A stretch of 56,504 nucleotides of DNA, taken from NCBI GenBank assembly GCA_009377635.1, contig WHTR01000006.1, positions 1 through 56,504 on the forward strand, written 5' to 3'. The notes beneath the pieces were generated by a model. It saw nothing but the letters and a program-made list of their open reading frames with translations. It ran no database searches and was not told the origin of the DNA. Shown here piece by piece: positions 27,055 to 54,686 of this stretch; position 1 is the stretch's first letter, and each line of letters begins with the position of its first letter. The DNA is from Chloroflexota bacterium. Lineage in GTDB: Bacteria; Chloroflexota; UBA6077; SHYK01. The position numbers and the translations under genes are program-made.

Positions 27055-27158
27055 CTTCTTGGCCGGTCCTGAAGAACTGATCGTACATTAGTTCGGCACC
27101 CCTCCAGCGCCAGATGAGTTCCTGCGAGTTCTACTACGGCAACTCGGAGCGCCTCTAG

Positions 27159-27288
27159 AACCCCGGCCGCAAAGCCCCGTCATCCTGAGGAGCGCAGCGA
27201 CGAAGGACCTCTCGTGACCGCCAACTTACGCTTAAGGGGAGATCCTTCGCTTCGCTCAGGATGACAGAAGGCGTTTTCGGCCGCGCCT
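27159..27288. mobile_element. 130-bp MITE, copy A, CTAG-flanked
   Basis: Flanked by CTAG at 27155-27158 and 27289-27292. Ends AACCCCGGCCGCAAAG and CTTTTCGG-like CGTTTTCGGCCGCGCCT are imperfect inverted repeats around CGGCCG. Essentially the same sequence lies in opposite orientation at 53828-53957. Contains two ATCCT...AGGAT palindromic units. The surrounding gap (27055-27398) between convergent genes holds nothing else I recognise. Confidence 0.85.
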
Positions 27289-27398
27289 CTAGGGCCTCGT
27301 TCGCACCTGATGGTTTGCCGTCGTCTTGGTGATCCAGGGAGCGCCAAAGGCCGCTGCCGATTCGGCATCTGATGGGTACGGCTACGGGTGTAGGAGGG

Positions 27399-53796: not shown

Positions 53797-53827
53797 GCCG
53801 TTTGAGACATCTCACATGGAGCACTAG

Positions 53828-53957
53828 AAGTGCGGCCGAAAACGTCTTCTGTCATCCTTCGCTTCGCTCAGGATCTCCCCTTAAGCGTAAGTTAGCGGTC
53901 ACGAGAGATCCTTCGTCGCTGCGCTCCTCAGGATGACGGGGCTTTGCGGCCGGGGTT
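53828..53957. mobile_element. 130-bp MITE, copy B, CTAG-flanked
   Basis: Reverse-complement relative of the element at 27159, equal in length, flanked by CTAG at 53824-53827 and 53958-53961. It differs by a few transitions and by an exact inversion of the inner ATCCT...AGGAT unit. The right CTAG supplies the TAG stop of the next gene. Confidence 0.85.
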
Positions 53958-54686
53958 CTAGCCGTTCGCGCCGCCTGCCCCGAAGGCCTCGACGAGGGTT
54001 GCCACGTCGCCGCCGCTGACTGACCGGGGCAGCCGCTGGACGTGCGATCGGAGGGACCGCACCAAGAGCGCCGGCGGCTGACATCCTCGCATCGTCACGC
54101 GCACGCGCGGATCGGTGAAGACGACCACCGGGTTTATCGAGACGTCCTCCAGCAACTCCGACGGGAGTCGCTCGGCAATGCGCCGGCGGGCAAGATTGAC
54201 GTCTCGCTCCGCATCAGCGGCCGGGTTGCCCAGGGCCACGGGCGGTGCGAACCACAGGAGGAGACGGAGCGGTAGCGGGCGGCCGGGGTCGTGGCCCCAC
54301 GTCCCCTCGACGCACGTTACGGACCCCGCGACGCCCCGAGGCAGCAGGATGAGAATCCCCATCGGACCAACGAGCAAGTAATCCGGCAGACGGGCGCCCG
54401 GGAAGACCAGGAGATGATAGCGGTTGTCCAGCCCCCGGAGAGCTCGCCTGAGGGCTGGGTCCTGGCGCGCACGAGGTCCCCACCGGCGGATGTATGTCTG
54501 GTTCCGCCACCAGAAGAGCAGACCGATCAGCAAGGACGGGACGGACACCGCGTATTGCAGGACCGGATCGGGCTGAATGGCCGAGAAGATGAACCCAACG
54601 CCCAGGACGAGTACCGCGATGATCAGGTGTGCCCCGCTCCATCGCACCTGCCGGCGGACGTACAACTCGTTGGTATAGACCTGCAT
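53958..54686 (-). CDS. NERD-like membrane protein
   Basis: A 242-residue protein with two N-terminal membrane helices (AHLIIAVLVLGVGFIFSAI and YAVSVPSLLIGLLFWW, about residues 19-62). The rest resembles a nuclease-related (NERD) domain: NRYHLLVFPGARLPDYLLVGP, a central G-x-x-x-C-x-E segment and NPVVVFTDPRVRV. It starts 24 bp after plsX on the same strand, so it may be co-transcribed. Its stop TAG is part of the CTAG at the edge of the 130-bp element. Biochemical function of the family is not established. Confidence 0.65.
   Translation of the reverse strand: MQVYTNELYVRRQVRWSGAHLIIAVLVLGVGFIFSAIQPDPVLQYAVSVPSLLIGLLFWWRNQTYIRRWGPRARQDPALRRALRGLDNRYHLLVFPGARLPDYLLVGPMGILILLPRGVAGSVTCVEGTWGHDPGRPLPLRLLLWFAPPVALGNPAADAERDVNLARRRIAERLPSELLEDVSINPVVVFTDPRVRVTMRGCQPPALLVRSLRSHVQRLPRSVSGGDVATLVEAFGAGGANG

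Follow-up and report, generated by a model that had tools for sequence, protein, structure and literature searches.

One inverted hairpin loop in a bacterial MITE family, probably a one-off template switch

Among the copies of a 130-bp miniature element, one carries a hairpin whose 11-bp loop is exactly inverted between intact 5-bp arms. We consider it likely that this copy underwent a one-off inter-strand template switch within an IS1182-mobilised MITE family, and that the change is probably neutral. The copy lies in the window, the whole 56,504-nt stretch of DNA that was analysed, together with an unflipped copy. The features of both are as follows.

27155-27158 and 27289-27292: CTAGs flanking the unflipped copy
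27159-27288 (27155-27292 with the flanking CTAGs), + strand: unflipped 130-bp MITE copy
27182-27208, + strand: left hairpin of the unflipped copy, ATCCT-GAGGAGCGCAGCGACGA-AGGAC (family consensus AGGAT)
27242-27262, + strand: right 21-bp hairpin of the unflipped copy, with the polarity usual in the family, ATCCT arms, and an 11-bp core (GAGCGAAGCGA, read outside-in on the - strand)
53824-53827 and 53958-53961: CTAGs flanking the flipped copy
53828-53957 (53824-53961 with the flanking CTAGs), - strand: MITE copy with the flipped hairpin
53854-53874, no strand assigned: inverted 21-bp hairpin with arms ATCCT/AGGAT and the 11-bp core reverse-complemented relative to other copies
53908-53934, - strand: left hairpin of the flipped copy, in normal polarity

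The two copies, first described in an earlier note on this DNA, are both present with a length of 130 bp and CTAG on each side, and lie in opposite orientations. Alignment in one orientation shows 12 differences over the 130 positions, 7 of which fall within element positions 89–99, the 11-bp core. The copies had been called nearly identical, which is accurate with the core set aside (5 of 109 positions differ). Reverse-complementing element positions 84–104 (27242–27262 and 53854–53874) eliminates exactly the 7 core differences, in agreement with the exact reversal of a 21-bp unit noticed earlier, and leaves five scattered substitutions at positions 50, 64, 113, 127, and 129. Read on the + strand, the 21-mers of the two copies are identical letter for letter inside elements of opposite orientation. 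The normal right hairpin is ATCCT-GAGCGAAGCGA-AGGAT, and the core of the 53828–53957 copy is TCGCTTCGCTC; the arms, length, and flanking bases of this copy are all as in the unflipped copies. The arms are exactly 5 bp long, and the next outward bases are unpaired. Because the 7 clustered changes all equal the reverse complement and the family has a median of 3 pairwise differences, they cannot reasonably be regarded as independent point mutations, as the note had also argued from the alignment.

The host assembly (3.5 Mb, 343 contigs, 84% complete) contains 45 BLAST matches to the 130-bp element. Twenty of these regions are full-length, ungapped 130-bp copies between CTAGs, from which the median above was obtained; the search for full copies demanded CTAG on one side, and the full copies have it at both ends. 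The ends of the element are AACCCCGGCCGCAAA / AGGYGCGGCCGAAAA; one side has AACCCCGGCCGCAAAG, and the opposite side has AGGYGCGGCCGAAAACG or closely similar sequences. Inside the ends, each copy has two hairpins that face each other approximately 30 bp apart, and each hairpin reads TCATCCTGAG...CGAAGGATCT from outside to inside. No coding capacity was evident in the 130-bp element, Rfam gave no match at the elements, and a literature search for the 23-mer hairpin motif found no paper. These short, non-coding units, dispersed as near-identical copies with terminal inverted repeats, are MITEs. In L105 (G000:C271:24361–24550), the left half of a MITE copy is duplicated around a run of N, which points to tandem duplication or else to an assembly scar.

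A transposase search led to a 1.85-kb insertion sequence on contig C300 of the same genome (L108:524–2376). Its CTAG-anchored 20-nt terminal inverted repeats (CTAGAGGTCCGGCCGAAAAG / CTTGTCGGCCGGGTTTCTAG) match the MITE ends, and its 582-aa protein was assigned to the IS1182 transposase family NF033551 of NCBIfam (308.7 bits against a cut-off of 270), with the Pfam domains DUF772, DDE_Tnp_1, and DDE_Tnp_1_6. Since the CTAG-anchored ends match, the MITEs are best read as IS1182-mobilised, and the IS1182-family transposase probably moves them via their ends. Short and transposase-less, they resemble IS1182-family MITEs, and the IS1182 element of the host genome has similar terminal inverted repeats and CTAG flanks, although beyond the ends the MITEs have no evident sequence in common with that element. 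IS1272, a member of the IS1182 family, is reported to replace stem-loops without target duplication (PMC5678879), whereas the present MITEs sit between CTAGs. An origin as REPINs mobilised by a RAYT was considered and rejected: a single Y1 transposase (PF01797, L112) was found in the genome, without element ends nearby. The MITEs share with REP/REPIN sequences two inverted hairpins, a unit of about 100 bp, and many copies, but differ from them in that the hairpins lie inside CGGCCG-type terminal inverted repeats and both sides are flanked by CTAG.

Several genes, including clpX (adjoining L004), end at a TAG stop codon inside a flanking CTAG, and the same holds in the window for the - strand open reading frame at 53958–54686. 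This arrangement fits with insertion into pre-existing CTAG sites. As CTAG itself contains TAG, an insertion preference for stop codons was also considered, but frames of at least 100 codons end about equally often at flanking CTAGs (35%) and at other CTAGs (30%), which does not demonstrate any preference other than for CTAG itself. CTAG is strongly depleted in the window (33 sites seen versus approximately 179 expected from base composition), and the CTAG-flanked elements consequently take up a notable share of the CTAG sites.

Related hairpins occur in other contexts. In L099 (G000:C14), L101 (G000:C122), and L110 (G000:C66), the hairpin motif is interrupted at its CTCAG|GAT (or CCTGAG) step by the insertion of another mobile element, whose ends resemble AGAGTTTGTGAA / TTCACAAACTCT, and CTCAG appears to be duplicated in L099. 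These sites suggest that a second transposon targets the MITE hairpins. In L100 (G000:C122:4168–4326), the loop of the right MITE hairpin is enlarged by GGAGTTTACCCTCGAGCGAAGCGAAGG, a second hairpin nested in the first with the same core in opposite polarity. Two-hairpin relatives with other ends (CAGGCTGCTGAAAA or similar) were found at L094 (G000:C271:14421–15045), L090 (C44:41918–42542), and L098 (C339:297–921), and transposon ends of more than one type thus seem to carry the same hairpin pair.

Hairpin polarity was counted with the exact-flank pattern TCATCCT-N11-AGGATCT. In the host genome, 34 of the 35 exact-flank hairpins have the usual polarity and one is flipped (53852–53876); all left hairpins seen are in normal polarity. 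The earlier note had proposed such a tally as a check, and it returned the one flipped copy, without support for recurrent flipping. With the core set aside, the flipped copy is one substitution away from L012, L013, and L015, all of which are unflipped and share with it A at position 113 and T at position 129; its private substitution is at position 64. Together with the 34:1 polarity, these unflipped relatives establish both the ancestral state and a single event. Judging from the 34:1 polarity together with the unflipped state of the closest copies, the flip is a recent private mutation of a single copy, and neither a subfamily trait nor a switch. The note had named two findings that together would tell against its reading, namely one fixed orientation in all other copies and a separate subfamily accounting for the difference; the former was observed, whereas the latter was not. 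A subfamily with opposite core orientation, for which nothing speaks beyond the one copy itself, has next to no probability in view of its single member and its one-substitution distance outside the core from unflipped copies.

A phylum sample of 400 genomes was also surveyed, with the host genome left out of the tally and counts taken among the matches listed. Among these matches, 28 other genomes have 110 hairpins in normal polarity and one flipped, in G250 (G250:C908:11942–11966, L113). The sequence there, TCATCCTTCGCTGCGCTCAGGATCT, is the inversion of the common core of G250 itself in a related hairpin, GAGCGCAGCGA having become TCGCTGCGCTC. Within the 400 genomes, the flipped motif of the window has a single exact occurrence, namely the 53828–53957 copy. 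Across all genome_contigs, it was found in four stretches, and in viral_contigs it was absent while the normal motif occurred 17 times. Flips are rare but recurrent, independent single-copy events.

The independent flips in other assemblies also bear on the possibility that the flip is an artefact of sequencing, amplification, or assembly in a single contig of this metagenome-assembled genome. Hairpins are prone to artefacts, and this genome is fragmented, with many element copies at contig ends. On the other hand, the flipped 25-mer must exist in the reads to assemble, unique sequence flanks an intact 130-bp copy on both sides, and the flipped copy has its own private substitution at position 64; we therefore regard an artefact as improbable.

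The loop of the flipped copy is the reverse complement of its ancestor with arms and length unchanged, as is characteristic of loop inversion by template switching. The 130-bp units are non-autonomous MITEs that sit at CTAG, and an IS1182-family transposase probably recognises their ends and moves them. In the proposed course of events, DNA polymerase in the 53828–53957 copy would have left its template once at the 5-bp ATCCT/AGGAT arms, used the complementary strand as template for the 11-bp loop, and then returned. Such a switch would leave the loop inverted and the arms and all flanking bases untouched, and the inverted loop would then have been inherited as a private, probably neutral mutation. 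An inter-strand template switch that inverts the spacer of an inverted repeat leaves the length constant and the arms exactly retained (PMC8604942), and the flipped sequence fits this outcome in full. Against this explanation, the arms are only 5 bp, the 11-bp loop exceeds the 7–8 nt reported as long in PMC8794818, and the local hairpin is weak (approximately −2.7 kcal/mol as DNA). The case is thus on the edge of the range in PMC8604942 and PMC8794818 for both arms and loop. The note had offered flipping between short inverted arms, replication-template switching, or recombination; an inversion between short arms stands, with template switching as the best fit, and recurrent flipping is not supported given the one polarity of the 34 other hairpins.

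Two other template sources were weighed. Gene conversion from, or an ectopic template switch with, another oppositely oriented MITE copy would give the same resulting sequence, since many copies exist in both orientations and nearly all have the same core. However, the boundaries of the tract coincide exactly with the 5-bp arms, no flanking differences were co-converted, and the local complementary strand is nearer and sufficient, which makes a distant donor unlikely. The left hairpin of the element itself was rejected as a donor, since its core (GAGGAGCGCAGCGACGA) is a different sequence.

The whole element is predicted to form one long, imperfect hairpin, with the left core paired to the right core. 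The flip breaks this pairing: the minimum free energy of the single-stranded DNA is −31.7 kcal/mol (z = −3.6) without it and −20.6 kcal/mol (z = −0.6) with it; the RNA folds are also weaker after the flip on both strands. Selection to keep the palindrome was therefore rejected as an explanation, and because the flip weakens the whole-element palindrome in these predictions, a function of the flip appears unlikely. Both window copies lie between convergent genes, the pairs being methyltransferase-like and SBP_bac_5 genes, and an AAA ATPase gene and a 242-aa open reading frame without a Pfam match. No regulated output was apparent, and neutrality is the simplest view of the flip.

These surroundings are relevant to active, reversible flipping, in which a recombinase or repeated strand exchange at the 5-bp arms would make the hairpin a miniature phase-variation switch. 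Exact inversion between inverted arms and the independent flips in other genomes would accord with a switch. The polarity ratios (34:1 in the host genome and 110:1 in 28 other genomes, among the matches listed) are contrary to it, as are the convergent gene context and the lack of a reporter gene, promoter, or regulated reading frame in the unit, and we consider it very improbable. A 21-bp unit with 5-bp arms is far smaller than known invertase substrates. The 34:1 polarity and this small size make a dedicated recombinase a very unlikely agent of the flip. A single flipped copy, in a unit without gene output, falls short of an invertible DNA switch.

The flip is a known kind of mutation in one IS1182-associated MITE copy, and a functional switch is unsupported. 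By itself, the single flipped copy alters little. Its value is as a clean natural case in which an 11-bp loop was inverted between 5-bp arms; the repeat is multi-copy, and its unflipped sister copies reveal the ancestral state directly. As hairpin repeats are widespread, counts of flips could measure the frequency of short-arm template switching in bacteria. A broader proposal, that MITE-like hairpin loops are hot spots of ongoing, reversible template-switch inversion in living populations and that such repeats naturally record switching at short (5-bp) arms in bacteria, is a long shot.

Template switches within inverted repeats are known from other systems. An intra-strand switch makes the arms alike, and an inter-strand switch and return inverts the spacer. 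Inversion of inverted-repeat spacers by inter-molecular template switching was described in yeast (Abraham and Hazkani-Covo 2021, PMC8604942). The yeast cases involve arms of >9 bp and changes of 2–5 bp in genes, whereas the bacterial repeat here has 5-bp arms and an 11-bp loop; common to both are the retained arms, a spacer that is the exact reverse complement, unchanged length, and a rare but recurrent occurrence. Loop-only inversions by template switching were also reported in rRNA hairpins, including bacterial ones (PMC8794818). Those loops are mostly 4 nt and at most 7–8 nt long and belong to RNA genes, whereas the present loop belongs to a MITE, and the two systems have in common a loop-only inversion inside a hairpin, bacteria included.
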